Part shown: positions 877 through 15,009 of the stretch, in pieces | Position numbering within the stretch: the first letter of the stretch is position 1 | How the letters are laid out: each line of letters starts with the position of its first letter | Source of the DNA: Streptomyces inusitatus | GTDB lineage: Bacteria > Actinomycetota > Actinomycetes > Streptomycetales > Streptomycetaceae | Assembly (NCBI RefSeq): GCF_014651115.1 | Contig: NZ_BMWG01000009.1 | Span: 75,354 to 139,353, forward strand | Direction: 5' to 3' | Length of the DNA stretch: 64,000 nucleotides | Translations under genes and position numbers: made by a program | Notes under the pieces: model-generated | What the model saw: only the letters and a program-made list of their open reading frames with translations | Told to the model about the DNA's origin: nothing | Database searches by the model: none

Positions 877-3800
877 GTGAATCCGAGCGTTCCCTTCACC
901 TTCACCCTCCTTGGCACGGTCCGCGGCTGGCGCGGTACGGAGGAACTCTCCCTGGCCGGACCGCAGCAGCGCACGGCGCTGGCGATGCTCCTGCTGGCCG
1001 GCGGGCAGCCGGTCACCACGGAGGAGCTGGTCGACGGCCTGTGGGGCGCGGGCTCCCCCAAAGCCGGCACGACCACGGTACGGACGTACGTCTCGCGGAT
1101 CCGCACCCTGCTGGAGCCCGGGCACCGCCGGAACGGCGGCCCGACCCTGCTGGTTTCGGTCGGATCCTCGTACGCGCTGGAGCTGCCGGACGGCTCCCTC
1201 GACGTGACGCTCGCCGAGCGGGAGGCGACGGCGGCCGAGGCGCGTCGGGCGGACGATCCGCGCGGGGCGCAGATCCTGCTGAACCGGGCCGTGAGCCGCT
1301 GGCGGGGCGCCCCGCTCGCCTCTCTGGCCGGGCCCTTCGCGGAGGCCTGGCGGGAGCGGCTCGCCCAGCGCCGGCTGAGCCTGCTCGAAGCCAGGGTCGA
1401 ACTGGATCTGGAACTCGGCGACGCCCGCGCCGCGGTGACCGATCTGACCGCGGCGGTCGCCGGGCACCCACTGCGGGAGAGCCTGCGGCTGCCGCTGATG
1501 CGGGCGCTCTACCAGTGCGGGCGGCAGGCCGAGGCCCTCGATGTGTTCCGGGACGTCCGCACCGTGCTCGCCCGTGAGCTGGGCATCGACCCGGATCCCC
1601 GGCTGTCCGAGCTGTACGGGCGGATCCTGCGCTCCGATCCGGCGCTGCTGCCGGGCCGGGCGGAGCGCGCTGCCGGGCCCACGCCGGTGGCGGCTCAGGT
1701 TCCGGTTCCAGCCCCGGCCCCGGCTCCGGCAGCCGCCGTCCCCGCCCCGGCGCAGCTTCCGGCCGACATGGCGGACTTCACCGGCCGGGAGCGGATCGTG
1801 GCCGCCCTCACCGCGTCCCTGAGCGCTCCCGCCGGGCCCGCCGTGCCCGTCTTCGCCATCTCCGGCATGGGCGGCAGCGGCAAGACCGCGCTGGCGGTGC
1901 ATGTCGCGCACCGGCTGCGCCCGCGCTTCCCCGGCGGCCAGCTCTTCGTCGATCTCGCGGGGGTGACGGACCGTCCGGCCGAGCCTCATATGGTGCTGGG
2001 GCATCTGCTGCGCTCGCTCGGCGTTCCCGAGGCGGGGGTGCCCGAGGATCTGGAGGCCCGGGCGGCGCTCTACCGCACGATGCTGGCGGAGCAGAAGATG
2101 CTGGTGGTGCTGGACAACGCGGCGGGCATGGAGCAGATAAGACATCTGCTGCCCGGCTACCCCTCCTGTGCGGTGATCGTCACCAGCCGGGTGCGGCTGA
2201 CCGCCATGCCCGCGCACACCGTCGAGCTCGATCCCTTCCACCCCGAAGAGGCCCTGGAGCTGCTCGCCTCGGTGATCGGCCGCCGCCGTGTGCTGGCCGA
2301 GCCGGAGGCGGCACGAAAGCTGGTGGCGGCCTGCGGACATCTCCCGCTCGCCGTGCGGGTCATCGCCTGCCGCGTCGTGGCGCGGCCCGGCTCCACCGTC
2401 GCGGACTGTCTCCGCCGGCTCTCCGACGAACGGCGCGGGCTCGACCAGCTGCGGGCCGGGGACCTGGATGTGCAGGCGTGTTTCCAGCTCGGTTACGACC
2501 AGCTCGCCCCCGCCCTGGCGCGGGCGTTCCGGCTGCTGGCGCTCCCCGAGGCCGAGACCGTGTCGCTGCCGTTCGCCGCCGCGCTGCTCGGGGCCGAGGA
2601 GTTCGACGCCGAGCAGCTGCTGGACGAGCTGGTCCAGGCGGGTCTGCTCCAGTCTCCGCAGCTGGGCCGCTACCGCTATCACGACCTGGTGCGGCTCTTC
2701 GCCCGCCGCCGATGTGCCGAGACGGACGCCGAGGAGCGGGTCGCCGAGGCGCTCACCCGGCTGCTGGACTTTCTGCTGGGGACCGTGCGCAACGCGTACC
2801 GGCTGGTCCGCCCCGGTCATCTCATCGCGTCGCTGCTCGAAGGGGGCCGGGCTCCGGGGGTGGCGTTCGCCGACGCGCGGTCGGCGCACGACTGGTTCGA
2901 CGTGGAGCGCGACGGAGTCCTCTGTGTGCTCCTCCAGGCGGTGCTGCGGACGCCCGCGCTGGTGGGGCGGGCGTCGGATGTGCTGCTCGGTCTCGATCCG
3001 CTGCTCGAACGGGCCTACGCGTGGTCCGACATCGTGCATGTGGGCGGGGCGGTGGTGAGCGGGGCGGAGCGCGCCGGGCTGCCGCGCGCGGAGGCCGCCG
3101 CGCGCTACATGCTCGGCGGGGCGCTGTGGCAGCTCGGCCGGCCCGTCGAGGGGGCCGATCACATCGAGCGGGCGGGCGGGCTCTGCCGGGACCACGATCA
3201 CCCGCTGGTGCTCGCCGAGGTGATGATGCTGCGGGCGCTGATCTCGGCGGCGCTCGACGGCGGCCACAACGGTGTGACGGTCGGGCTGCTGCGGGAGGCA
3301 CTGGATTTCCAGCGGGCGATCGGGAACCCCTCCGGGGAGGCGAACACCCTCGGCAGCCTCGCGTTCGCCCAGAACGTGGTCGGCGATCCGGCGGCGGCGA
3401 TCCGGACCTGCGCGGAGGGGCTGGCGCTCTACCGCGAACTCGGCGACCCGATGGGCGAGGCGCAGATCCTGATCCACCGGGGCAGTGCGCTGGGGCTGTC
3501 GGGCGAGACCGCGGCGTCGGCCGAGTGCTACGCCCGGAGTCTGGAGCTCAGCCGTGAACTGGGCTTGCGCTTCCTGGAGGCGGGGACTCTGCACCGGATC
3601 GCGGAGACCCGGCTGTCCGCCGCCGACGCCTCTTCGGCGGTCGCGGCGGCGGAGGAGGCCCGGGCGCTCAGCCATGACCTGGGGATGTTCCGGATCGAGG
3701 CGCGCGCCCTCGCCACCCTGGGCCGGGCGCTGGCCGCGCTCGGCCGGCGCGAGAGCGCCGTGGCCCGGCTGCGCGAATCGGTCGCCGTCTACCGGCGGCT

Positions 3801-3918
3801 GGGGCTGGCCGAGGGGGCGGGCGCGGAAGCGGCCCTCGCCGAGCTGACGGAAGCGAGAGCGGGAGCGGGAGCAGGAGCGGCGACCGCCCCGATGGGCGGT
3901 CCGGTAGCGGGCGGTTGA
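877..3918 (+). CDS. Large SARP regulator with BTAD, NB-ARC and TPR domains (AfsR-like)
   Basis: A 1013-residue pathway or global regulator of the AfsR type. The N-terminus is an OmpR-like winged helix (about 5-95), followed by a bacterial transcriptional activation domain (about 100-250) with RRLSLLEARVELDLELGD. An Ala/Pro linker (about 262-300) leads into an NB-ARC ATPase with P-loop GMGGSGKT at 330-337 and kinase-2 LVVLDN near 410. The C-terminal third carries TPR-like helices with repeats such as GEANTLGSLAFAQ and GEAQILIHRGSAL. Start is GTG at 877 behind GGAAAGG. Proteins of this architecture activate secondary metabolism after ATP-dependent signalling. No biosynthetic cluster adjoins it, so the target is unknown; heptamer repeats upstream suggest autoregulation. 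Confidence 0.9.
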   Translation: MNPSVPFTFTLLGTVRGWRGTEELSLAGPQQRTALAMLLLAGGQPVTTEELVDGLWGAGSPKAGTTTVRTYVSRIRTLLEPGHRRNGGPTLLVSVGSSYALELPDGSLDVTLAEREATAAEARRADDPRGAQILLNRAVSRWRGAPLASLAGPFAEAWRERLAQRRLSLLEARVELDLELGDARAAVTDLTAAVAGHPLRESLRLPLMRALYQCGRQAEALDVFRDVRTVLARELGIDPDPRLSELYGRILRSDPALLPGRAERAAGPTPVAAQVPVPAPAPAPAAAVPAPAQLPADMADFTGRERIVAALTASLSAPAGPAVPVFAISGMGGSGKTALAVHVAHRLRPRFPGGQLFVDLAGVTDRPAEPHMVLGHLLRSLGVPEAGVPEDLEARAALYRTMLAEQKMLVVLDNAAGMEQIRHLLPGYPSCAVIVTSRVRLTAMPAHTVELDPFHPEEALELLASVIGRRRVLAEPEAARKLVAACGHLPLAVRVIACRVVARPGSTVADCLRRLSDERRGLDQLRAGDLDVQACFQLGYDQLAPALARAFRLLALPEAETVSLPFAAALLGAEEFDAEQLLDELVQAGLLQSPQLGRYRYHDLVRLFARRRCAETDAEERVAEALTRLLDFLLGTVRNAYRLVRPGHLIASLLEGGRAPGVAFADARSAHDWFDVERDGVLCVLLQAVLRTPALVGRASDVLLGLDPLLERAYAWSDIVHVGGAVVSGAERAGLPRAEAAARYMLGGALWQLGRPVEGADHIERAGGLCRDHDHPLVLAEVMMLRALISAALDGGHNGVTVGLLREALDFQRAIGNPSGEANTLGSLAFAQNVVGDPAAAIRTCAEGLALYRELGDPMGEAQILIHRGSALGLSGETAASAECYARSLELSRELGLRFLEAGTLHRIAETRLSAADASSAVAAAEEARALSHDLGMFRIEARALATLGRALAALGRRESAVARLRESVAVYRRLGLAEGAGAEAALAELTEARAGAGAGAATAPMGGPVAGG

Positions 3919-3946: not shown

Positions 3947-4114
3947 GGCAGCATGAACACTGCATGACCCATGAAGTACGCCAATCTCCCCCAAAGAAGG
4001 GCATCGAGCCACTCACACCGGGGGGATTTCCTCCGATTGGGCAGCAATTGAAGGCCTGCCGTGAATTAATCCGGGACATTGACGTTAATCAGCGCCGACG
4101 GCACCATCCTCCGC

Positions 4115-5257
4115 ATGCCGAGGAGTGAGCCGACCGCGCTGACCCTCCTGCGCCGGACCCATGAGGCGCAGGTGGTCGAACTGCTGCGCCGGCTCGGCGC
4201 GCTCAGCCGCGCCGAGCTGGGCCGGCGCACCGGTCTGTCCCGTACGGCTCTGTCGTCCATCACCGGCTCGCTGATCGGCCGCGGTGTCGTCGTCACCGCA
4301 CCGGCGGCCCCCGCCCGGGGCACGCGCGGTCGCGGCCGTCCCGTCGATCTGCTGCGGCTCAACCCCGCCATCGGCCGGTGCGCCGGGGTCGATCTGGGCC
4401 GGGGCCGGGTGCGCGCCGTCGTCAGCAACGCGGCGCACGAGATCATCGGCTCGGAGAGCCGCCCGTACCCCCGGCGGACCTCCTGGGAGGAGCGGACCGC
4501 GATCGCGCTGGAGCTGCTCGACACGGTCCTCGGCGGCGGGAGCGACGGCCTGGAGGGCATCGGGATCGGACTGTACGGTCCCGTCGGCCCGGCCACGGAA
4601 CGGGCCTCGGCCGCCGTGCGGCTGTTCGGCGAGCGGTACGGGGTGCCCGTGCTCGTCGACAACAACACCCGGCTCGCCGCGCTCGCCGAGGCCGTTCACG
4701 GAGCCGGGGCCGGAACCCGGCACTCCGTCTATGTACGGCTGTCGCACGGCGTCGGCGGCGGACTGGTCGTGGACGGCCGGCTGCTGCGCGGCGCGAGCGG
4801 CGCGGCGGGCGAGATCGGGCATGTCCCGGCCGATCCGCGGGGGCCGCGCTGCCACTGCGGCGGCCGTGGCTGCCTGGAGCTGTACGCGTCCCTGCCCGCC
4901 GTGGAGGCCGCGGGCGGTCTCGGGGACGACGCCGCCGTCGAGCGGGCGGGGCGGCTCACCGGACAGGTGCTGGCCGGGCTCTGCAACACGCTCGACCCGG
5001 AGCTGATCGTCGTCGGCGGCGAACTGGCCGGCTGCGGCGAGCGGCTGCTCGCCCCGCTGGAGGCGGAGCTGCGGGCCCGTGCCCTGCCCGCCGTCCGGCA
5101 GGGGCTGCGGATCACCGCCGAGCGGCTGGGCGACTCGGGCGGCGCGCTGGGCGCGATCGCGCTGGTACGCCAGGAGTCCCCCGCTCCGCGTCTCGCCCGG
5201 CAGCCGTACCCGGCCGCCGCCGGCACCGGCTGTACCGGGCCGGTCGTCTCCGGCTGA
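4115..5257 (+). CDS. ROK-family transcriptional regulator
   Basis: A 380-residue sugar-sensing repressor or activator of the ROK family. The N-terminal winged helix contains LSRAELGRRTGLSRTALSSITGSL. A ROK domain follows, with GVDLGRGRVRAVV, a VDNNTRLAALAEA segment, the metal-site motif CHCGGRGCLE after EIGHVP, and DPELIVVGGELAG near the end. It lies just upstream of and parallel to the ABC importer-sulfatase-DUF4838 operon, so it probably controls that operon in response to a sugar or sugar derivative. The start is uncertain. An in-frame TTG at 4079 would add 12 residues including a rare TTA codon; neither start has a convincing ribosome-binding site. I prefer the ATG at 4115 because family members begin close to this point. 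Confidence 0.85.
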   Translation: MPRSEPTALTLLRRTHEAQVVELLRRLGALSRAELGRRTGLSRTALSSITGSLIGRGVVVTAPAAPARGTRGRGRPVDLLRLNPAIGRCAGVDLGRGRVRAVVSNAAHEIIGSESRPYPRRTSWEERTAIALELLDTVLGGGSDGLEGIGIGLYGPVGPATERASAAVRLFGERYGVPVLVDNNTRLAALAEAVHGAGAGTRHSVYVRLSHGVGGGLVVDGRLLRGASGAAGEIGHVPADPRGPRCHCGGRGCLELYASLPAVEAAGGLGDDAAVERAGRLTGQVLAGLCNTLDPELIVVGGELAGCGERLLAPLEAELRARALPAVRQGLRITAERLGDSGGALGAIALVRQESPAPRLARQPYPAAAGTGCTGPVVSG

Positions 5258-5368
5258 CCCTTTCTCTCCCCTCCGGCGCGCCCGGGGCCGCTCCCCGGCC
5301 CGGGTCCGCCGTGCCGGGGCGGCGCTCCGCCGCCTTCGAACACCCCAGAACACAGAGGCGGTACCGCC

Positions 5369-6217
5369 ATGCCCAGGACCAGACCCCCCGCGCCTCCCCC
5401 GGCCGGGGGCCTTTCGAAGACGAGCGCGAAGCCCCCGGCCGGGCCGGTGCGCGCCGCCGCCCGGCGGAGGTGGACCGTCCGGCTGCTGGGCGCGGTGTCG
5501 GTGCTCACCGGGCTGGCGCTGTGGCAGCTGCTCGCCGCGCTCGGGGCCGGGGGTGTCCCCGGCCCGGGGCCGGTGGCCGCGCGCGGTGCGGAGCTGGTGG
5601 CCGACGGGACGCTGATCGCGGACGCGCTGGCCTCGCTCCGCCGGGTGCTGACCGGCTTCGCGCTCGGCACGGCGGCCGCGATCCCGGTCGGCGCGCTGAT
5701 GGGCTGGTATCCCACGGCGCGGGCGCTGTTCGAGCCCTGGGTGCAGTTCTTCCGGGTGATCCCGCCGCTGGCGATCATCCCGCTGGCGATCGTGCTGCTC
5801 GGCATCGACGAGGCTCCCAAGATCACCGTGATCTTCCTGGCGGCCTTCCTCTCCACGGTGGTCCCGGTCTTCCAGGGCGTGATCGGGGTGGAGAGGACCC
5901 TCATCGACGCGGCCCGGGTGCTGGGCGCGGGCGATCCGACGATCTTCGTACGGGTGGTCGTGCCGGCCACCACGCCGTTTCTCTTCGCGGGCGCCCGGAT
6001 CGGCCTGGGCGCGTCCTGGTCGACGCTGGTGGCCGCCGAACTGATCGCCGCCCAGAAGGGGCTGGGCTATCGGATGCAGCAGGCGCAGCTCTACTACGAC
6101 CTGGAAACGATCTTCGTCGGCATTGTCTCGATCGGTCTGCTCGGACTGCTGATGGACCGGCTGCTGATGGCGGCCGAGCGCCGGGCCACCGCCTGGCAGG
6201 AAAGGAGGGCGGCATGA
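5369..6217 (+). CDS. ABC importer permease, sulfonate/nitrate/taurine type
   Basis: A 282-residue inner-membrane permease of the SsuC/TauC class. A proline-rich cytoplasmic N-terminus is followed by about six membrane segments. The ATPase-contact loop is [37 protein letters not shown], the EAA-type motif typical of this class, shown here only as a pointer to about residues 170-208. AGAGGCGG precedes the ATG. It opens a coupled operon: its stop overlaps the ATPase start, and a lipoprotein, a sulfatase and a secreted DUF4838 protein follow. The substrate is probably a small sulfonate or sulfate ester, inferred from family and neighbours. Confidence 0.88.
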
Positions 6218-7065
6218 CCGCCACCGTCCCCGCCGTACCCGCCCACTCCCCCGGCTCCCCGGACTCCCCCGCGCTGATCTCGTTCCGGGACACGGTGAAG
6301 CACTTCCCCGGCCCGGACGGCGGTTTCACCGCCCTCGGCGGGATCGGTCTCGATGTGGCCGAGGGCGAGTTCACCGCGATCGTCGGCCCGTCCGGGTGCG
6401 GGAAGTCGACCCTGCTGGCGATCGCCGCCGGACTGGTCGAGCCGACCTCGGGCGAGGTGCTCCTCGACGGCCGCCCGGTCTCCGGGCCCGGCCCCGACCG
6501 GGGCGTGGTCTTCCAGCAGTACGCCCTCTTCCCCTGGCTGACCGTCCGCGCCAATGTGGAGTTCGGGCTGCGCACCGCCCGGGTGCCGCGCGCCGAACGG
6601 CGTCGCCGGGCGCAGCACTACATCGACCTCGTGGGGCTCGCCGACTTCGCCGACGCCCTGCCCAAGACCCTGTCCGGCGGGATGAAGCAGCGCTGCGCGA
6701 TCGCGCGGGCGTACGCCGCCGACCCCCGGATCCTGCTGATGGACGAGCCCTTCGGCGCGCTCGACTCGCTCACCCGGTCGCAGTTGCAGGAGCAGCTCCT
6801 CCAGACCTGGGAGCGGGAGCGCCGCACCGTCCTCTTCGTCACCCACGACGTCGACGAGGCCGTCTTCCTCGCCTCCCGCGTGATCGTCATGGCCTCCCGG
6901 CCGGGCCGGATCGACCGCACGGTCGAGATCCCGCTGCCCTACCCCCGTACCCGGGCCACCCGGCTGACCGCCGAGTTCACCGCGCTGCGCACCGAACTCT
7001 GGCAGGCCGTCCAGCGGTCCGAGCCCACTGCCCGCCCCGCGTCCGAAGCCACCCAGGAGAACTGA
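6214..7065 (+). CDS. ABC importer ATPase, sulfonate/nitrate/taurine type
   Basis: A 283-residue ATP-binding subunit of the SsuB/TauB class. Walker A is GPSGCGKST, the Q-loop lies in [11 protein letters not shown], the signature is LSGGMKQR, Walker B is ILLMDEP, and the switch histidine is in FVTHDVDEA. The start is the ATG in the ATGA overlap with the permease stop, behind AAAGGAGG. An open frame extends much further upstream but only mirrors other genes. It energises uptake of the ligand delivered by the downstream lipoprotein. Confidence 0.93.
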
Positions 7066-7067
7066 CC

Positions 7068-8120
7068 ATGCCCCTGCCCAGACTGCCCCGGACCGGCCGG
7101 ACGACCCGGCCCGCGCGGGGCCGCACCACCCGCTTCACCAGCGCCGCCGCCGCCGTGCTCGTCGTACTGGCCGCCGCGGGCTGCTCCGCCGAGGCGGCGG
7201 ACGGCGAGAAGCGGCAGAAGATCGACTTCGGCTACATCGCCGACTACAACCAGGCGGGGCTGCTGGCCATCGCCGAGAAGCGGGGCCTGTGGGCCAAGCA
7301 CGGCCTCGACGCCTCGTACAAGGTGTTCACCGACGGCCCCACCCAGATCACCGCGCTCGGCGCGGGCGATCTCGACTTCGGCACCATCGGCCCCGGCGCG
7401 ACCTGGCTGCCCGCCTCCGGGAAGGCCACGGTCATCGCGGTCAACCAGCTCGGCCAGGCCGACCGTGTGGTGGCGCTGCCGGGGAAGGGCATCCGGACGA
7501 TCGCGGATCTCAAGGGCCGCGAGGTCGCCGTCCCGGAGGGCACGTCCGGCGACATGATCCTCACTCTCGCACTGAAGAAGGCCGGGCTGACCAGGCAGGA
7601 CGTACAGGTCGTGCCCATGGCCCCGCCCACCGCCGTCGCCGCGCTCGCCTCCGGCAAGATCGACGCGGCCGCCCTGTGGCACCCGCTGCTCGGCACGGTC
7701 GAGAAGCGGGTGCCGGATCTGGTGGAACTGGCGAAGAGCGCCGACTTCGCGGAGAAGTTCGTCTTCCCCAGCTCCGTCGTCGCCTCGCCGAAGACCGTCA
7801 AGGAGCGTCCCGGCCTGGTCACCGACGTCAACCGGGTGCTCCAGGAGGCCAATGACATCCGCCACCGCGACCGGGCGGAGTCGGTGAGGATCACCGCCGG
7901 ATTCCTGCGGCTGGACGAGCGGGCCGTGGCCGAGGACGCGCGGAACACCCAACCGCTGTCGACGGCCGACCTGCTGAAGAAGACCGAGGACGGCACCGTC
8001 GCCCGGTGGTACGCCGCGCTCCAGGAGTTCTTCGTCTCCACCGGGAAGCTCGACGGTCCGGCCCGCCCCGGCAGCTTCTACGCGGGCGGCCTCTACACGA
8101 AGGCGGCGGACGGAAAGTGA
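7068..8120 (+). CDS. ABC importer substrate-binding lipoprotein
   Basis: A 350-residue extracytoplasmic binding protein of the SsuA/NMT1 fold. The N-terminus is arginine-rich, then hydrophobic, with a lipobox LAAAGC placing the lipidated cysteine at residue 39. The mature part has features of the aliphatic sulfonate/nitrate family: GYIADYNQAGLLAIAEKRGL, ALGAGDLDFGTIGPGA, and IADLKGREVAVPEGTSGD. It starts 3 bp after the ATPase stop and overlaps the sulfatase start by GTGA. The ligand cannot be read from sequence. The sulfatase partner suggests a sulfate ester or sulfonated sugar. Confidence 0.88.
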   Translation: MPLPRLPRTGRTTRPARGRTTRFTSAAAAVLVVLAAAGCSAEAADGEKRQKIDFGYIADYNQAGLLAIAEKRGLWAKHGLDASYKVFTDGPTQITALGAGDLDFGTIGPGATWLPASGKATVIAVNQLGQADRVVALPGKGIRTIADLKGREVAVPEGTSGDMILTLALKKAGLTRQDVQVVPMAPPTAVAALASGKIDAAALWHPLLGTVEKRVPDLVELAKSADFAEKFVFPSSVVASPKTVKERPGLVTDVNRVLQEANDIRHRDRAESVRITAGFLRLDERAVAEDARNTQPLSTADLLKKTEDGTVARWYAALQEFFVSTGKLDGPARPGSFYAGGLYTKAADGK

Positions 8121-9667
8121 CGTACGAACCGGCCCCGGCCGAGGGCTCCCGGCGGCCCAACATCCTCTTCCTGATGACCGATCAGCACCGTACGGACACC
8201 CTGGGCGCGTACGGCGCGAGCGGCGGCCACACCCCGCATCTCGACGCGCTCGCCGCCGACGGCACCCGCTTCGACCGCTTCTACACCCCGACGTCGATCT
8301 GCACCCCGGCCCGCGCCAGCCTGCTCACCGGGTACGCGCCCTTCCGGCACAAGCTGCTCGCCAACTACGAGCGGAACGTCGGCTATCAGGAGGATCTCGC
8401 CGACGGCCAGTTCACCTTCACCGCCCCGCTCGCCGAGGCGGGCTACCGGCTCGGGCTGATCGGGAAATGGCACACGGGGGTGCGCCGGGTCCCGGCCGAC
8501 TTCGGCTTCGAGGGGCCGTATCTGCCCGGCTGGCACAATCCGGTGACCCATCCCGACTATCTGGCCCATCTGGCGGAGCACGGGCTTCCGCCGTATGCGA
8601 TCAAGGATCCGGTCCGCACCCGGCTGCCCGGCGGCGGGCCGGGGCCGATGCTGGCCGCGCGGCTGCTCCAGCCCGTCGAGGCCACCTTCGAGCACTATCT
8701 CGCCACCCGGGCCATCGAACTGCTGCACCGCTGGGCGCGGGAGGACAGCGGACGGCCCTTCTTCCTCGCGACCCACTTCTTCGGCCCCCATCTGCCCTAT
8801 CTGCTGCCCGACGCCTACTACGACCTGGTCGACCCGGACACGGTGGAGCTGCCTCTCTCGCTCGCCGAGACCTTCGAGGGCAAACCGCCCGTCCAGCGGA
8901 ACTACAGCGCGCTGTGGGGTCACGACTCCCTCTCCGAGAGCGAGTACCGGGGGCTGATCGCCGCCTACCGGGGCTATGTGGCCCTGATCGACTTCCAGAT
9001 CGGCCGCATCCGGCAGGCCGTCACGGACCTCGGTCTCGCGGACTCCACGGCGGTCATCTTCACCGCCGACCACGGCGAGTTCACCGGCTCCCACCGGATG
9101 CACGACAAGGGACCGGCGATGTACGAGGACGTCTACCGCGTTCCCGGTCTGCTCCGGGTGCCCGGCGCGCCGGGCAAAGTGGTGCGGGACGAGTTCGCCA
9201 CGCTCACCGACATCACCGCCACCATCCTGGATCTGGCGGGCTGCGACCCGGCCCCGGCGGTGGACGGCCGCAGTCTGCTGCCGCTGGTCTCGGGGGACGC
9301 CGCGCCCGCGTCCTGGCCGCGCGAGGTGATCGGCGAGTTCCACGGCCATCACTTCCCGTATCCGCAGCGGATGCTGCGCGAGGAACGCTTCAAGGTCGTG
9401 GTGAACCCCGAATCCGTCTGCGAGCTGTACGACCTGGTGACGGACCCCCATGAACTGCGCAACGCCTGGGACGATCCCGCCCTGCGCGACGCGCGCGACC
9501 GGCTCGTACGGCGGCTGTACGAGCGGCTGCGCGAGCGGGGCGACAACTTCCACCACTGGATGGCCGCCGTTCTCGACATCGGCGGACCGGCCGGTGACAC
9601 CTCCCTCGGCTCCTTCGAGCCGGACCGCACCCCCGAAGGGCGTGACAGCCATGCACCGACACCCTGA
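8117..9667 (+). CDS. Type I sulfatase
   Basis: A 516-residue formylglycine-dependent sulfatase of the alkaline phosphatase superfamily. The maturation motif is CTPAR with Cys62 predicted to become formylglycine. Metal ligands include Asp22-Gln23 in LFLMTDQHRTD and the later TADHGEF motif. The second sulfatase signature appears as LIGKWHTG. There is no signal peptide, so it should act in the cytoplasm on an imported sulfate ester, which fits its GTGA coupling to the lipoprotein gene. Related enzymes hydrolyse glycan sulfates, choline sulfate or phosphonate monoesters. The substrate is unproven; an anaerobic or aerobic FGE would be needed elsewhere in the genome. Confidence 0.9.
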   Translation: MTYEPAPAEGSRRPNILFLMTDQHRTDTLGAYGASGGHTPHLDALAADGTRFDRFYTPTSICTPARASLLTGYAPFRHKLLANYERNVGYQEDLADGQFTFTAPLAEAGYRLGLIGKWHTGVRRVPADFGFEGPYLPGWHNPVTHPDYLAHLAEHGLPPYAIKDPVRTRLPGGGPGPMLAARLLQPVEATFEHYLATRAIELLHRWAREDSGRPFFLATHFFGPHLPYLLPDAYYDLVDPDTVELPLSLAETFEGKPPVQRNYSALWGHDSLSESEYRGLIAAYRGYVALIDFQIGRIRQAVTDLGLADSTAVIFTADHGEFTGSHRMHDKGPAMYEDVYRVPGLLRVPGAPGKVVRDEFATLTDITATILDLAGCDPAPAVDGRSLLPLVSGDAAPASWPREVIGEFHGHHFPYPQRMLREERFKVVVNPESVCELYDLVTDPHELRNAWDDPALRDARDRLVRRLYERLRERGDNFHHWMAAVLDIGGPAGDTSLGSFEPDRTPEGRDSHAPTP

Positions 9668-11936
9668 CGACCGCACCGGCACGGCGGCGGCTGCTGCCGG
9701 ACCCGGACCCGGACCCGGCCGCCGGACCGTGCTGAGAACGGCGGCCGTCGGCGCGACGGCGGTCGCGGCCACCGCCCTCGCCGCGCCGGAGGCCGCCGCC
9801 CGGAAGCACGGCACGGGCGGCACGGGCGGCACGGGCGGCACGGGCGGCACCCAGGTGGCCGGCTCCGCGGTCCTGTGGTGGGCCCCGGACGCGGAGGCCG
9901 AGGTGGTCTCCTTCGCCGCATCGGAACTCGCCGGGTATCTGGGACGGATCGTCTCCGGCCCCGTCGCGGCACGGCGCTCGGCCCGCCCGGGGCGCGGCCT
10001 GGCGCTGCTCCCCGCCGGTTCGCCGTCCTCCGGTGCGCACGGCGATGTGCCCGCTTCGCTCGGCGCCGGGGCGGACCGGCTGCTCGCGGGCCGGGGGCCC
10101 GAGGCGCACACCTTCACCGTGGGCGCGACGGGGGCGCTCGCCACCGGCAACGGCGCGCGGGCCGTGCTGTACGCCGCGTACGCGCTGCTCGAACACGCCG
10201 GGGTGCGCTTCTTCGCGCCCGCCTTCCCGCAGTACGAGGGCCGGGCCGAGCGGGTGCCGAGGGACGGCGGGCTGGTGATCCCCGCGACCGCCGGGGCCGG
10301 GACCGTGGCGGAGCCCGCCTGGACCTGGCGGCGCAAGTACGTCGAGGAGGGCACCAGCCACACCGCCGAGGGGCTGGTGCTGCTGCTCGACTGGATGGCC
10401 AAGAACCGGCTCAACACCCTCGTACACCCCTATGACTACAACCACTGGGGGCACATCACCTACGACAGGGTGCGCGAGAGCGTCTCCCCCGAGGCCGCGC
10501 GGCGCGGCATCGTCGTCGAGGTCGGCGGCCACGGCTACGAGAGCTTCCTGCCCAGGGAGCGGTACCCGGACTTCTACACGCCCGGCTCCAATGTCTTCAA
10601 CGTCCATGACGAGGCCGCGCTGAACACCTATGTCCGGGCGGTCACCGGCTATCTCGCCGGGCGTCCGGAGATAGCCGTCTTCGACGCCTGGCCGCCCGAC
10701 ACGGCGACCTGGCCCGCCGCCTCCGTCGCCGCCTTCGGCTCGGTCGCCGACGCCGAGGCCCATGTGGTCAACACGCTGCGCGCCGCGCTCGCCACCGCGC
10801 TCCCCTCGGTACGGGTGGAACGCGTCGCCTACGGCGCGGCCATCGCCCCGCCGAGCGCGGGCCCCGGCTTCCACCCGGAGGTGCTGATCGACTTCGCGCC
10901 GTACGAGCGGAACTATCTGCACGCGCTCGCCGACCCCGCGTCCGGCCCCAACGCGCCCCTGGCGGCGCTGCTGCGCTCCTGGGCGGAGGCGGCCGACGGC
11001 CCCCTGTCGGTCTACGACTACAACCGGCGCTACCGGTGGCGCTCGCTGCCGGTGCGCCCCTTGCGGATCCTCGCCGCCGACGCGCGGTTCTACGAGTCCC
11101 TGGGCGTCGACGGGCTGGGCTCGTACTCGGAGCCCGCCGACTGGCTGCCCTTCGAGGCCGTGCATCTGTTCTCCGCGCGGCTCGCCCGCGAGCCCGGCAC
11201 CGACCCGGACGCCTGGCTGGCGGAGTATCTCGCGGACAGGTTCGGACCGGCCGCCGGGGCGCTCGGCGAGTACTTCCGCGCGACCGCGGCCGATCCCGAC
11301 GGGCTGGCCGACCCCTCGTACGCCGCCGCCGTGCTGGCCGGCTACCGGAGCGCGGCCACCGCTCTCGACAGCGCGCTGGCCGCTCTCGCGGGCCGGGAGG
11401 AGCGGCTGGTCGTGGCCCTGCTGCGGTCCCATCTCGAACTCGCCCTGGCCGATGTCACGATCTCGGTCTCGGCCACCGCCGCGTCCCGGGCCACCGCGAG
11501 GGCCGCCTATCGCGCGCTCCTCGAAGAGCGCCGGTTCCGCGGGCTGGTCCTCCAGGACATCCGGGCGGTGCAGCGCTGGGGCGGCTCGCTCGCCCACCGG
11601 GACGGGTATCCGCTCTACCATCTCCCGGCGCATGCCTCCCTGGTGAGCGACCGGGTCACCCTCGCGCGCGGCGGCTCCGCCGCGGTACGGCTGCGCGCCC
11701 AGGACGTCGACTGGCGCGGCCACACGGTGACCTGGAGCGCCTCGGCTCCCCCGGGCCTCACCCTCTCCGCCGCCTCGGGCGCGCTCACCGTGTCGGGCGC
11801 GAGCGACGGCGCACGGCGGCTGACCCTCACCGCCGCCGGGTCGCTCGCTCCCGGTACGCACACGGTGGTCTTCGCCTTCACCGGTGACGGCACCGTGCCG
11901 CTGCCCCCGGCCCGGCTCACGGTGACCGTCGTCTGA
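9651..11936 (+). CDS. Tat-exported DUF4838 (glycosidase-like) protein
   Basis: A 761-residue protein with a twin-arginine signal (GRRTVLRTAAVGATAVAATA). A low-complexity linker of repeated Gly-Thr-Gly encoded by tandem GGCACG units (about 9811-9850) follows. An N-terminal domain like that of GH67/GH20 enzymes comes next, then a TIM-barrel-like DUF4838 region with DYNHWGHITYDRV, EVGGHGYESF and YDYNRRYRWRSLPV. The last 90 residues form a beta-sandwich resembling an Ig-like domain. Its ATG lies 17 bp inside the sulfatase gene, so it belongs to the same operon. I infer extracellular cleavage of a sulfated or amino-sugar glycan. DUF4838 has no firmly established activity that I know of. Confidence 0.75.
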   Translation: MHRHPDDRTGTAAAAAGPGPGPGRRTVLRTAAVGATAVAATALAAPEAAARKHGTGGTGGTGGTGGTQVAGSAVLWWAPDAEAEVVSFAASELAGYLGRIVSGPVAARRSARPGRGLALLPAGSPSSGAHGDVPASLGAGADRLLAGRGPEAHTFTVGATGALATGNGARAVLYAAYALLEHAGVRFFAPAFPQYEGRAERVPRDGGLVIPATAGAGTVAEPAWTWRRKYVEEGTSHTAEGLVLLLDWMAKNRLNTLVHPYDYNHWGHITYDRVRESVSPEAARRGIVVEVGGHGYESFLPRERYPDFYTPGSNVFNVHDEAALNTYVRAVTGYLAGRPEIAVFDAWPPDTATWPAASVAAFGSVADAEAHVVNTLRAALATALPSVRVERVAYGAAIAPPSAGPGFHPEVLIDFAPYERNYLHALADPASGPNAPLAALLRSWAEAADGPLSVYDYNRRYRWRSLPVRPLRILAADARFYESLGVDGLGSYSEPADWLPFEAVHLFSARLAREPGTDPDAWLAEYLADRFGPAAGALGEYFRATAADPDGLADPSYAAAVLAGYRSAATALDSALAALAGREERLVVALLRSHLELALADVTISVSATAASRATARAAYRALLEERRFRGLVLQDIRAVQRWGGSLAHRDGYPLYHLPAHASLVSDRVTLARGGSAAVRLRAQDVDWRGHTVTWSASAPPGLTLSAASGALTVSGASDGARRLTLTAAGSLAPGTHTVVFAFTGDGTVPLPPARLTVTVV

Positions 11937-11942
11937 CGGCCG

Positions 11943-11985
11943 CCCGGCCGGCTCGCCCCCGTACGCGGGCGGCGGGCCGGTCAGC
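11943..11985. terminator. Imperfect hairpin between convergent genes
   Basis: A GC-rich imperfect inverted repeat, CCGGCTCGCC to the left and GGCGGCGGGCCGG to the right around a CGTACG centre, separates the DUF4838 stop from the phospholipase stop on the other strand. It may terminate both transcripts. Pairing is imperfect. Confidence 0.35.
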
Positions 11986-12532
11986 GGTAGCCGAAGGCCT
12001 TGCCGCCGACCGCGCGGACGGCGAGGTAGTAGTTGGCCGCGAGCAGCCTGCACTTCGTGCGCGATCGACCCTTGTAGGTGTCGTTGCAGGTCCGCCGCAT
12101 CTCGGCGAGGAATCTGCCGTCGATCTTCTTCCGGGTCGCCCTGGTGGGGCTGAGTTCCAGCTTCCCTCTGGCCCCGTAGTTGCGGTAGCCGAAGTCGTGC
12201 TGGTCGCAGGCCCTTCTGAACTTCTTCTTGTACGGGAAGTCCTTCATCGGGACGCTGCATCCGTCGGCCCGCCAGTCGAAGGGCTTCGCCCGCTTGGCCT
12301 TGGCGAACTTCTTGTAGCTGAGCGCCATGACACGGTCGGCCCTGCGCTTCAGCTCCGCCTTGTCGAAGGCCGGCGAGACGGCCGGGGCCAACGGGGCCAC
12401 TGGGGCCGACGGGGCCACCGGGCGACTCGCCGCGGCCTCCGCCGGGCCCGCGGTCCCGGCCAGGGCGGTCAGGGCCAGGGCGGCCGAGACCGCCGCCGTT
12501 CCCAGAGGGCTCTTCTTCCTGCCGTGCGTCAC
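11981..12532 (-). CDS. Secreted prokaryotic phospholipase A2
   Basis: A 183-residue exported enzyme. Residues 1-35 are a signal peptide (basic THGRKKSP, hydrophobic core, AGPAEAAA). An Ala/Pro/Val linker precedes the catalytic domain. ACDQHDFGYRNYG matches the His-Asp catalytic and calcium-coordinating helix of Streptomyces phospholipase A2 (ACARHDFGYRNY). Paired cysteines flank it (DGCSVP, RTCNDTYKGRS, TKCRLLA). It hydrolyses the sn-2 ester of phospholipids outside the cell. The start is GTG at 12532, directly behind GGGAGGAAGCA. The longer frame to 12598 adds 22 residues without a ribosome-binding site and spoils the signal peptide. Confidence 0.85.
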   Translation of the reverse strand: MTHGRKKSPLGTAAVSAALALTALAGTAGPAEAAASRPVAPSAPVAPLAPAVSPAFDKAELKRRADRVMALSYKKFAKAKRAKPFDWRADGCSVPMKDFPYKKKFRRACDQHDFGYRNYGARGKLELSPTRATRKKIDGRFLAEMRRTCNDTYKGRSRTKCRLLAANYYLAVRAVGGKAFGYR

Positions 12533-12809
12533 TGCTTCCTCCCTCACCCGCGGTCCCGCCCGCCGGGACGGCCCGTCTTTTTCCCAAGAGCCTGCCACCG
12601 CGGGCGCGGCGAGTGAACGGATCGGACACCGGCGCGTACGCCAGAGACCGTCACGGCCGTACCACCCCCGCGCGCCGGGCGGTTGACGGCCCGGGCGGGC
12701 GCGTACGCCGGGGCGCCGCGGGGGCCGTCGGGAGCGCCTCCGAATTTTCCGCCTTCGGGCGCATCCGTTCCCGGGACATCGGCGGAATGGTGCACGGGAC
12801 GGGCTCGCT

Positions 12810-12835
12810 TCCCGTGGCGACGTGTCGCCACGGGA
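12810..12835. promoter_or_regulatory. Perfect dyad in the phospholipase-MMPL intergenic region
   Basis: TCCCGTGGCGAC (12810-12821) and its exact complement GTCGCCACGGGA (12824-12835) flank a GT centre. It lies 90 bp before the MMPL start in a divergent gap of about 390 bp. That position suits an operator better than a terminator. The rest of the gap (12533-12924) shows nothing else I can support. Confidence 0.4.
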
Positions 12836-12924
12836 GCGTTCCGCCGTCCCGGACCGGGCCGTCCGCGCCCCGGGGAGCGTTCACGTCTCCTCGCGGCGGA
12901 CGGCGGAGAACAGCTGGGAGAGCG

Positions 12925-15009
12925 ATGATCGCCACCTCACGACGGGCCCGCCGGCTCGTCCCTGTCGTCCTGCTCGTCGTCTGGCTCTGCATAGGCGGCG
13001 CACTGGGCCCCTACGCGGGAAAGCTCGGCGAGGTCGCCACCGCCGACCAGGCCGCCTTTCTGCCGAGCGGGGCGGAGTCCACCGAGGTGCTCGCCGAGCA
13101 GCGGGCGTTCCAGCGGGACGGGCGGACCCCCGTGGTCGTCGTCTGGACGGCGGACGGCGGCGGACCGCTCGACGCGGACCGGCGGAGCGCGGCGGACCGG
13201 GCGCTGGCCTCGGTGACCCCGGTCTCCGGGGACGGCGAGCGGCCGGTTCCCGTCCTGCCGTCGCGGGACGGGGAGGCCCTCCAGGGAGTCGTCCTGCTCG
13301 AAGGCGACCTCGGCGACCGGCTGCCGGCCGCGCTGGACCGGGTCAGACAGGCCGCCGAGACCGTGCCCGGCACGGTGGTCGAGCTGGCGGGGCCCGCCGC
13401 CGCCAGGGCGGACCTGTCCTCGGCGTTCGCGGGGATCGACGGGCTGCTGCTGGGGGTGGCCCTCGCCACGGTGCTGGTGATTCTGCTGCTGGTCCACCGC
13501 AGTGTGCTGCTGCCCCTCGTCATCATCGCCGGGGCGGTCCTCGCGCTCGCCCTCGCCTGCGCGGTCGTGTACGCCCTCGCCGCCCGTGGCATCGTCCGGG
13601 TGGACGGCCAGGTCCAGGGCATTCTGTCCATTCTCGTCATCGGCGCGGCCACGGACTACGCGCTGCTGCTGACCGCCCGCCACCAGGAGGAGCTGGCCGG
13701 GGGCGACAGCGACCGGTTCACCGCCGTACTCGCCGCGCTGCGCCGGTCCACCGGCGCGATCGTCGCCAGCGCGGCGACCGTGGCGCTGGGCCTGCTGGCG
13801 CTGCTGCTCAGCGATCTCACCAACAACCGGGCGCTCGGGCCGGTGGGCGCGATCGGCATCGTCTGCGCCGTCCTCAGCACGCTGACCTTCCTTCCGGCCG
13901 CCCTGGTGCTGCTCGGTCCCGCCGTCCACTGGCCCGCCGGGCCGCGCCGCGCCGAGGACCCGGAGAGCGGCCGGGGGGTGTGGCACCGGGTGGCGGGCCT
14001 GGTCGACCGCGCGCCCCGCAAGGTCTGGTCCCTCACCCTCGCCGGGCTGCTGGTCTGCGCCGCCTTCGCGCCCATGCTCACGTCGAAGGGGGTGCCGCTG
14101 GAAGAGATCTTCGTCAAGGAGGCCCCGTCGGTCTCCGCCCAGCACACCCTCGCCCGGCACTTCCCCGGCGGATCGGGGAGCCCCGCCGTGGTCATCGCCG
14201 ACGCCGACGGGCTGGCGCGGGTGACGGCGGCGGCCAGGGACACCGAGGGGGTGGCGAGCGCGACCGCCGTGACGGAGTCCGGACGCCCCGGCGACGGCGG
14301 GCCCCGGACCGTGGACGGCCGGGTGCGTGTCGATGTCACCCTCCGGGACGCGCCGGACAGCGAGGCCGCCCGGGACACCGTGGTCAGGCTGCGGAGCGCC
14401 CTGCACTCCGTGCCCGGGGCCGACGCGATCGTCGGCGGCCCCACGGCCCAGCAGTACGACACCCTGGTCACGGCGGAACGCGACCGCGCGATCATCGTCC
14501 CGGTCGTCCTCGCCGTCATCCTGGTGATCCTGATCGGTCTGCTGCGCTCCCTGCTGCTGCCGGTGCTCCTGGTGGCAACGGTGGGCCTCAACTTCCTGGC
14601 CACCCTCGGCGTCTCGGCGCTCGTCTTCGAGCATCTGCTCGGCTTCAGCGGCACCGACCCGTCCGTGCCGCTGTACGGCTTCGTGTTCCTGGTGGCCCTC
14701 GGGGTCGACTACAACATCTTCCTTCTCTCCCGGGTGCGCGAGGAGTCCCTGCGCCACGGGGTGCGCCGGGGAGTGCTGCGCGGGCTCGTCACCACCGGCG
14801 GAGTCATCACCTCCGCCGGGGTGGTGCTGGCCGCGACCTTCGCCGCGCTCGGCGTCATCCCGCTGGCCTTCCTCGTACAGATCTCCTTCATCGTCGCCTT
14901 CGGCGTGCTGCTCGACACCCTCGTCGTCCGCTCCCTGCTCGTCCCGGCCCTGGTACGGGACATCGGACGCGCCGTCTGGTGGCCGGGGTCGCTCCGCTAC
15001 ACCCGGTAG
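12925..15009 (+). CDS. MMPL-family (RND superfamily) transporter
   Basis: A 694-residue integral membrane exporter with two repeats of one N-terminal helix, a large extracytoplasmic loop and about five further helices each. Membrane cores are seen at VPVVLLVVWLCIGGALGPYAGK, at LLLGVALATVLVILLLVHR and in the matching second half at IIVPVVLAVILVILIGLLRS. RND-type signatures include GAATDYALLLTARHQEEL and VALGVDYNIFLLSRVREE. Family members move lipids, siderophores or secondary metabolites across the membrane using the proton gradient. The start is ATG at 12925 behind GGGAG. The 3-prime end overlaps the convergent terpene-synthase remnant by 13 bp. Confidence 0.9.
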   Translation: MIATSRRARRLVPVVLLVVWLCIGGALGPYAGKLGEVATADQAAFLPSGAESTEVLAEQRAFQRDGRTPVVVVWTADGGGPLDADRRSAADRALASVTPVSGDGERPVPVLPSRDGEALQGVVLLEGDLGDRLPAALDRVRQAAETVPGTVVELAGPAAARADLSSAFAGIDGLLLGVALATVLVILLLVHRSVLLPLVIIAGAVLALALACAVVYALAARGIVRVDGQVQGILSILVIGAATDYALLLTARHQEELAGGDSDRFTAVLAALRRSTGAIVASAATVALGLLALLLSDLTNNRALGPVGAIGIVCAVLSTLTFLPAALVLLGPAVHWPAGPRRAEDPESGRGVWHRVAGLVDRAPRKVWSLTLAGLLVCAAFAPMLTSKGVPLEEIFVKEAPSVSAQHTLARHFPGGSGSPAVVIADADGLARVTAAARDTEGVASATAVTESGRPGDGGPRTVDGRVRVDVTLRDAPDSEAARDTVVRLRSALHSVPGADAIVGGPTAQQYDTLVTAERDRAIIVPVVLAVILVILIGLLRSLLLPVLLVATVGLNFLATLGVSALVFEHLLGFSGTDPSVPLYGFVFLVALGVDYNIFLLSRVREESLRHGVRRGVLRGLVTTGGVITSAGVVLAATFAALGVIPLAFLVQISFIVAFGVLLDTLVVRSLLVPALVRDIGRAVWWPGSLRYTR

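Follow-up and report, generated by a model that had tools for sequence, protein, structure and literature searches.

What might a bacterium take up and desulfate by means of a gene cluster in which a ROK-family regulator is followed by a sulfonate-type ATP-binding cassette (ABC) importer, a cytoplasmic sulfatase and an exported protein with a DUF4838 domain? The question is raised by six genes of Streptomyces inusitatus, located within a 64,000-nt stretch of contig NZ_BMWG01000009.1; this whole stretch is called the window here, and coordinates are relative to it unless they are given with another locus. An earlier, sequence-only reading of this DNA had suggested that the DUF4838 protein releases a sulfated sugar outside the cell, that the ABC system imports it, and that the sulfatase then removes the sulfate. 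The comparison of 29 modules, the window's own included, shows that the importer-sulfatase core is conserved and that DUF4838 is its exchangeable part, and the role that we consider most probable for the cluster, at roughly 0.6, is to free an O-sulfated sugar outside the cell, import it and desulfate it in the cytoplasm. The conserved core, a sulfatase without a signal peptide and the presence of a glycosidase beside the core in 28 of the 29 modules all fit release outside the cell followed by import and desulfation inside, whereas the part of the earlier proposal that was tied to DUF4838 itself is weakened by the replacement of this protein, in most relatives, by an enzyme of glycoside hydrolase (GH) family 43.

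The six genes of the cluster are the following:

4115-5257, + strand: ROK-family regulator with a winged helix and a ROK domain (PF00480, 152.9 bits)
5369-6217, + strand: ABC permease of the TauC/SsuC/NtrB type (PF00528, 89.3 bits)
6214-7065, + strand: ABC ATPase of the same importer as the permease (PF00005, 117.3 bits)
7068-8120, + strand: SsuA-family substrate-binding lipoprotein (SBP), an open frame with an ATG start (TIGR01728, 195.9 bits)
8117-9667, + strand: cytoplasmic type I (formylglycine-type) sulfatase with a GTG start (PF00884, 149.7 bits; PF16347)
9651-11936, + strand: DUF4838 (GH163-labelled) putative glycoside hydrolase exported by the twin-arginine translocation (Tat) pathway (PF16126, 40.3 bits, cut-off 26.6)

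As the earlier reading had described, the five genes that follow the regulator overlap or abut: after a 111-bp gap between ROK and permease come a 4-bp overlap (permease/ATPase), a 2-bp gap (ATPase/SBP), a 4-bp overlap (SBP/sulfatase) and a 17-bp overlap (sulfatase/DUF4838). The DUF4838 frame opens at 9450 in the list of open reading frames, and the Tat protein starts at 9651. Inspection by eye agrees with the earlier assignment of a Tat signal to the DUF4838 protein (motif RRTVLR) and of none to the sulfatase, and identifies a lipobox, LAAAGC, in the SBP. Palindromes upstream of the ROK gene and of the permease gene were compared, and nothing common to both was found. A large AfsR/SARP-like regulator (by eye) is encoded upstream of the cluster, at 877-3918, and is apparently unrelated to it.

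A conserved core with an exchangeable exported enzyme

The six-gene cluster is real, and more than a chance grouping, because the same six genes occur in the same order in Streptomyces clavuligerus (record L020, 70-83% identity, with 70.5% for ROK), and because the ratios of nonsynonymous to synonymous substitution rates (dN/dS) between the two species lie between 0.18 and 0.42, with zero stops in the six genes. The sulfatase displays the lowest ratio (0.18), followed by permease (0.20), ATPase (0.24), DUF4838 (0.34), SBP (0.36) and ROK (0.42), all of which are likely upper bounds, since dS is probably underestimated at such GC content. All six genes are also present in Embleya sp. NBC_00888 (L021), in the order ROK, sulfatase, permease, ATPase, SBP, a gene for the formylglycine-generating enzyme (FGE), and DUF4838; E. 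scabrispora (L023) has the same set in the same order. The ATPase is 65-81% identical across the actinobacterial modules. By tblastn, DUF4838 kin were detected in five plasmid records, three from S. clavuligerus, one from Embleya and one from Gemmatirosa. In the last of these (L022, 9024-28540) the DUF4838 kin is the only one of the six genes present, located directly after SusC/SusD-like genes and upstream of genes that resemble corrinoid methyltransferases (all by eye).

Homologues were searched by protein query, since a PF16126 profile search of the strain's own genome missed the window's gene. Among the best 17 candidates scored per genome, a DUF4838 homologue across the catalytic part was found in one of 60 other relatives (G023), where it is decayed, and the matches in 12 further genomes align only from about residue 643 onward. 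The sulfatase is commoner, occurring in 12 of 119 other relatives and, among the best eight candidates per genome, in 25 of 178 other genomes of the genus (E up to 1e-80), a set that includes the previous 12. The G023 locus (L019) has a ROK gene next to the decayed DUF4838 gene and an FGE gene in two frames (9029-13028), as well as a GH92-like gene (by eye; 4038-7310).

The flanks of all 25 sulfatase genes were followed for some 10 kb, or as far as the contig reached, and in 23 of these neighbourhoods the sulfatase has ROK, permease, ATPase and SBP genes with it. One of the 23 is that of G074 (L066), a short contig of 5,813 bases that holds permease, ATPase and SBP and ends inside ROK. The exceptions are L083, in which the SBP is reduced to a 29-residue match, next to a split permease match and a GH43B gene (12457-14126), and the broken locus L086, where the ATPase match is C-terminal only, the sulfatase lies in two frames and an FGE gene follows (7789-11742).

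The exported enzyme beside this core is a GH43 protein in 22 of the 25 loci, a DUF4838 protein in two (L073 and L085, each of which also has a GH35-like gene) and neither in L086. Two GH43 types, sought with one query each, such that other GH43 kinds would escape, account for this count: GH43A occurs in 12 loci, with 66-87% identity to its query from L062, and GH43B likewise in 12, with 76-84% identity to its own query; the counts include the queries, and two loci have both types. Seven of these proteins, three GH43A and four GH43B, were covered by a Pfam check. The nearest relatives of GH43A are endo-arabinanases, and GH43B has a remote match to an alpha-L-arabinofuranosidase (E 4e-4). None of the 29 modules (the 25 loci, the window, L020, L021 and L023) carries both DUF4838 and GH43 in the stretch searched, and neither GH43 type was found in that stretch in the six actinobacterial DUF4838 modules, the window's among them; one of the three types of exported-type glycoside hydrolase adjoins the core in all modules but one. 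Downstream of GH43A, L064 (13479-19751), L078 and L081 carry a GH2 gene. In L064 the next genes look by eye like an ABC importer of the sugar type and a LacI-like regulator; L075, L077, L078 and L081 have homologues of them.

These counts bear on two points of the earlier reading. It had named, as a result that would refute it, homologous operons without the sulfatase and DUF4838 genes; the homologous operons retain the sulfatase, and most of them are without DUF4838. In addition, the operon had been offered as a clue to the substrate of DUF4838; because 22 of 25 homologous modules carry GH43 instead, it is a clue to a shared released product, and not to DUF4838 alone. The idea that the operon by itself reveals the DUF4838 substrate was rejected, most homologous modules being without DUF4838. 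The persistence of importer and sulfatase in relatives whose exported enzyme is usually another one suggests that several exported enzymes feed one sulfated-sugar uptake route, and we infer that DUF4838 and GH43 are functionally equivalent. In a tree of the four core proteins, which left out the sulfatase of L027/L029 and used 3,600 of the L066 bases, the window and S. clavuligerus are joined (100/100), and the base of the actinobacterial part is poorly resolved, the six actinobacterial DUF4838 modules all falling to one side of a branch of weak support (54/5).

Importer, regulator and sulfatase

The permease and the ATPase score under the cut-offs of the taurine, nitrate and Ssu equivalog models of NCBIfam. 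The SBP passes the curated SsuA-family cut-off (TIGR01728, 195.9 versus 163.5 bits), with taurine and E. coli-type SsuA models under theirs, and a profile built from 12 actinobacterial and two Paenibacillus SBPs identifies TauA (6ssy, 1e-25) and SsuA (2x26, 6e-21) as the closest solved structures. For the regulator, NagC/Mlc-type models likewise remain under cut-off.

In an alignment of 28 sulfatases (at least 25 letters per column, with L029 and L086 set aside), the CTPAR (CxPxR) motif and residues D22, Q23, C62, R66, K117, H119, H225, D318, H319 and K331, which we take to be catalytic, are invariant, and L029 has identical residues at these ten positions. A signal peptide was not seen by eye wherever the start could be read, L086 being truncated. 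All NCBIfam models remain under cut-off, the best being a generic arylsulfatase. When 17 of the 29 sequences are built into a profile, its best match in the PDB is exo-2S-iota-carrageenan sulfatase (6pt4; 5e-71, 243 bits), ahead of 4upi (205 bits) and 7oz8, a chain named choline-sulfatase (198 bits), and seven of the ten best solved-structure matches bear carbohydrate-sulfatase names. The genome gave one further sulfatase-superfamily match (C9:17849-19003; L091 1350-2504), a protein that lacks CxPxR and is unlikely to depend on formylglycine.

The DUF4838 protein

The statement in the earlier reading that DUF4838 has no settled activity is out of date: a table labels a DUF4838 protein as GH163 (PMC9870897), and a Bacteroides thetaiotaomicron GH163 described in a review (PMC10154615) cleaves GlcNAc-beta-1,2-Man in complex N-glycans. 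Two peptide patterns, run against species genomes in a scan that yields a lower bound, identified at least 26 loci with DUF4838 kin in Actinomycetota, Bacillota, Bacteroidota, Armatimonadota, Verrucomicrobiota, Myxococcota and others. Twenty-four of these were aligned with the window protein (L030, with a stop codon, and L046, with a split frame, were dropped); all 25 rows match PF16126 (E up to 0.01), and the invariant acidic residues include E233, E290, D345, D350 and E494.

In the AlphaFold model (mean pLDDT, the predicted local distance difference test score, 80.7), residues 226-492 form eight strands alternating with helices, a predicted arrangement that reads by eye as a TIM barrel, and the five acidic residues are placed in or just after strands. 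The closest fold neighbours are GH115 (Z 22.3; rmsd 3.8 over 514 residues, 13% identity), GH84 (20.4), the GH20 lacto-N-biosidase (19.8) and GH67 (19.6), the last three being within Z 3 of the first; Foldseek also ranks GH115 best (8e-19). Sequence matches to solved structures are weak, namely a GH67 alpha-glucuronidase (2e-4) and a beta-N-acetylhexosaminidase (3e-4). A glycosidase fold is thus predicted from the model.

Genes related to the permease, ATPase and SBP are present at two of six Paenibacillus DUF4838 loci, in the order sulfatase, permease, ATPase, SBP and DUF4838 in L029, and as permease, ATPase and SBP with GH20 in L027. The other Paenibacillus neighbours include GH95 and GH2 (L024), GH84 (L025) and GH20 (L028). 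By-eye readings as NagB and NagA of neighbours of the DUF4838 kin in L036 and L037 were not used: neither of the two NagB candidates matched a Pfam family, and the NagA candidate matched only an amidohydrolase.

What may be released, imported and desulfated

In the route that we favor, an exported glycoside hydrolase, DUF4838 here and mostly GH43 in relatives, would trim an O-sulfated monosaccharide or small oligosaccharide from an extracellular polymer; the SsuA-type lipoprotein and its transporter, judging from their family, would import the still-sulfated product; and the sulfatase, assigned by family and motif, would convert it in the cytoplasm to sugar and sulfate. The ROK regulator probably responds to the sugar, and DUF4838 and GH43 would serve as exchangeable front ends to one importer-sulfatase core. 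Also in line with this route are the importer-type genes at two Paenibacillus loci, the carbohydrate-sulfatase names among the solved-structure matches, and sulfatase matches that, as a raw count, lie near 8 of the 26 DUF4838 loci of the species-genome scan.

A number of observations weigh against such a route. SsuA-family binders are known to us for sulfonates, not sugars; a sugar kinase was not seen within the cluster; and the sulfatase is remote from all solved ones, with phosphonate monoester hydrolases and choline sulfatases among its matches. The sulfatase of the Paenibacillus operon (31% identical) has a very long branch in the tree and seems to belong to another subfamily. Neither a canonical FGE nor an anaerobic sulfatase-maturating enzyme (anSME) was found in the strain's draft genome, whose 106 contigs, estimated by a tool to be 99.98% complete, could miss a gene. 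The choice between DUF4838 and GH43 needs two changes on the concatenated tree (GH43A presence needs at least two, GH43B at least three), and a single clade of all eight DUF4838 modules is not rejected (p-AU, from the approximately unbiased test, 0.568); the notion of many independent cases of exclusion was rejected on these grounds, and the exclusion perhaps rests on one or two switches. The swap is real as gene content, and may be a single event.

The core could instead serve to obtain sulfur from small aryl or alkyl organosulfates in general, with a glycosidase that frees an organosulfate aglycone or is only loosely linked. The SBP score, its TauA and SsuA relatives and the generic arylsulfatase model, even if under cut-off, are in line with this idea, as is the description of sulfate esters as a major soil sulfur pool (PMC4267179); nevertheless, the near-constant glycosidase, the many carbohydrate sulfatases among the best matches and the nature of the regulator, since ROK proteins are often tied to sugars, render it quite unlikely. 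A narrower proposal, which is a special case of the favored route (our confidences are not meant to sum to one), is that the substrate is sulfated GlcNAc or LacNAc of N-glycan, mucin or keratan-type origin, with DUF4838 working as the characterized GH163 does. This precedent (PMC10154615), the GH20, GH84 and GH95 genes beside Paenibacillus relatives, the closeness of the GH84 and GH20 folds and the weak beta-N-acetylhexosaminidase match all point in its direction; the top fold match, however, is a GH115 alpha-glucuronidase, the GH43 enzymes of sister modules are nearest to arabinan-active ones, L073 and L085 carry GH35 and not a hexosaminidase, and the PF16126 score of the window protein is modest (40 bits), such that the proposal seems doubtful.

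Matches to PehA and to enzymes of the phosphonate monoester hydrolase type evoke the further question of whether the "sulfatase" hydrolyzes phosphodiesters or phosphonate monoesters, the importer bringing in a phospho- or phosphono-sugar. This is very improbable, given that the NCBIfam matches all lie under cut-off, that the carrageenan sulfatase leads the next enzyme by 38 bits, and that the importer is sulfonate-type. The module could also be idle in its own strain if its sulfatase cannot be matured. An FGE gene adjoins 16 of the 29 modules, with the cysteine pair in all 15 adjacent FGEs examined besides the query, and is absent beside the module in the window and L020; the other module genomes without an adjacent FGE have one with the cysteine pair elsewhere in 11 of 11 cases tested. 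For S. clavuligerus, none was found in the plasmid record, the search being confined to that record and not extended to the chromosome. The FGE-type matches in the S. inusitatus genome (L087/L088, outside the window) are only EgtB, over its own cut-off, and a SUMF1-like protein in which Asp replaces the first cysteine of the pair, while the best anSME match is the peptide maturase FxsB, under the anSME cut-off. Such an idle state is nonetheless unlikely, as the sulfatase frame and catalytic residues are intact, its dN/dS is the lowest of the six, and a draft assembly could lack the gene. That a formylglycine-type sulfatase should stay under constraint where the genome has no recognizable maturase is a separate, testable puzzle.

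A bolder version of the favored route would have DUF4838 and the two GH43 types isofunctional, releasing one and the same O-sulfated sugar, probably similar to arabinose or galactose, for a common core, with the window sulfatase matured by means other than FGE or anSME; taken as a whole, this combination is unlikely to be correct. If it were, the DUF4838/GH163 family would gain a second activity, outside N-acetylglucosaminides.

Comparison with known systems

Soil sulfur is approximately 95% organic, sulfate esters being one of its two main forms (PMC4267179). In the open-access literature, which leaves most subscription papers and all bioRxiv preprints outside its scope, no description of this module, or of uptake of sulfated-glycan fragments by Streptomyces, was found. 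An importer-sulfatase core that is conserved while its exported glycosidases are swapped offers a testable uptake route, and comparison of its products with those of the GH43 versions provides a way to assign DUF4838 substrates.

The window protein shares with the B. thetaiotaomicron GH163 (PMC10154615) the DUF4838 label (PF16126) and a predicted glycosidase fold, but it belongs to a Tat-exported actinobacterial clade, is tied to sulfonate-type import, and has GH43 in its place in most relatives. Several sulfatase-rich polysaccharide loci of Bacteroidota also hold DUF4838 kin near sulfatase matches (L035, L044, L045, L048). Loci of this kind, however, employ outer-membrane uptake and exported sulfatases, whose signal peptides were also seen by eye, whereas the window has ABC import and a cytoplasmic sulfatase. 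The best solved relative of the latter, exo-2S-iota-carrageenan sulfatase, is distant in sequence, and the window enzyme differs from it in having no signal peptide.

The Pseudomonas ats system, which answers to sulfur starvation, combines the AtsRBC importer with the intracellular arylsulfatase AtsA and is not known to include an exported glycosidase. The window cluster resembles it in its SsuA-type ABC genes and its sulfatase without a signal peptide (by eye), an arrangement that would provide for import followed by cytoplasmic desulfation, and differs from it in that its unit includes a regulator of the ROK family and a glycoside hydrolase that is exported. By analogy, the cluster most likely represents an ats-like mode of working to which an exported glycosidase has been added.

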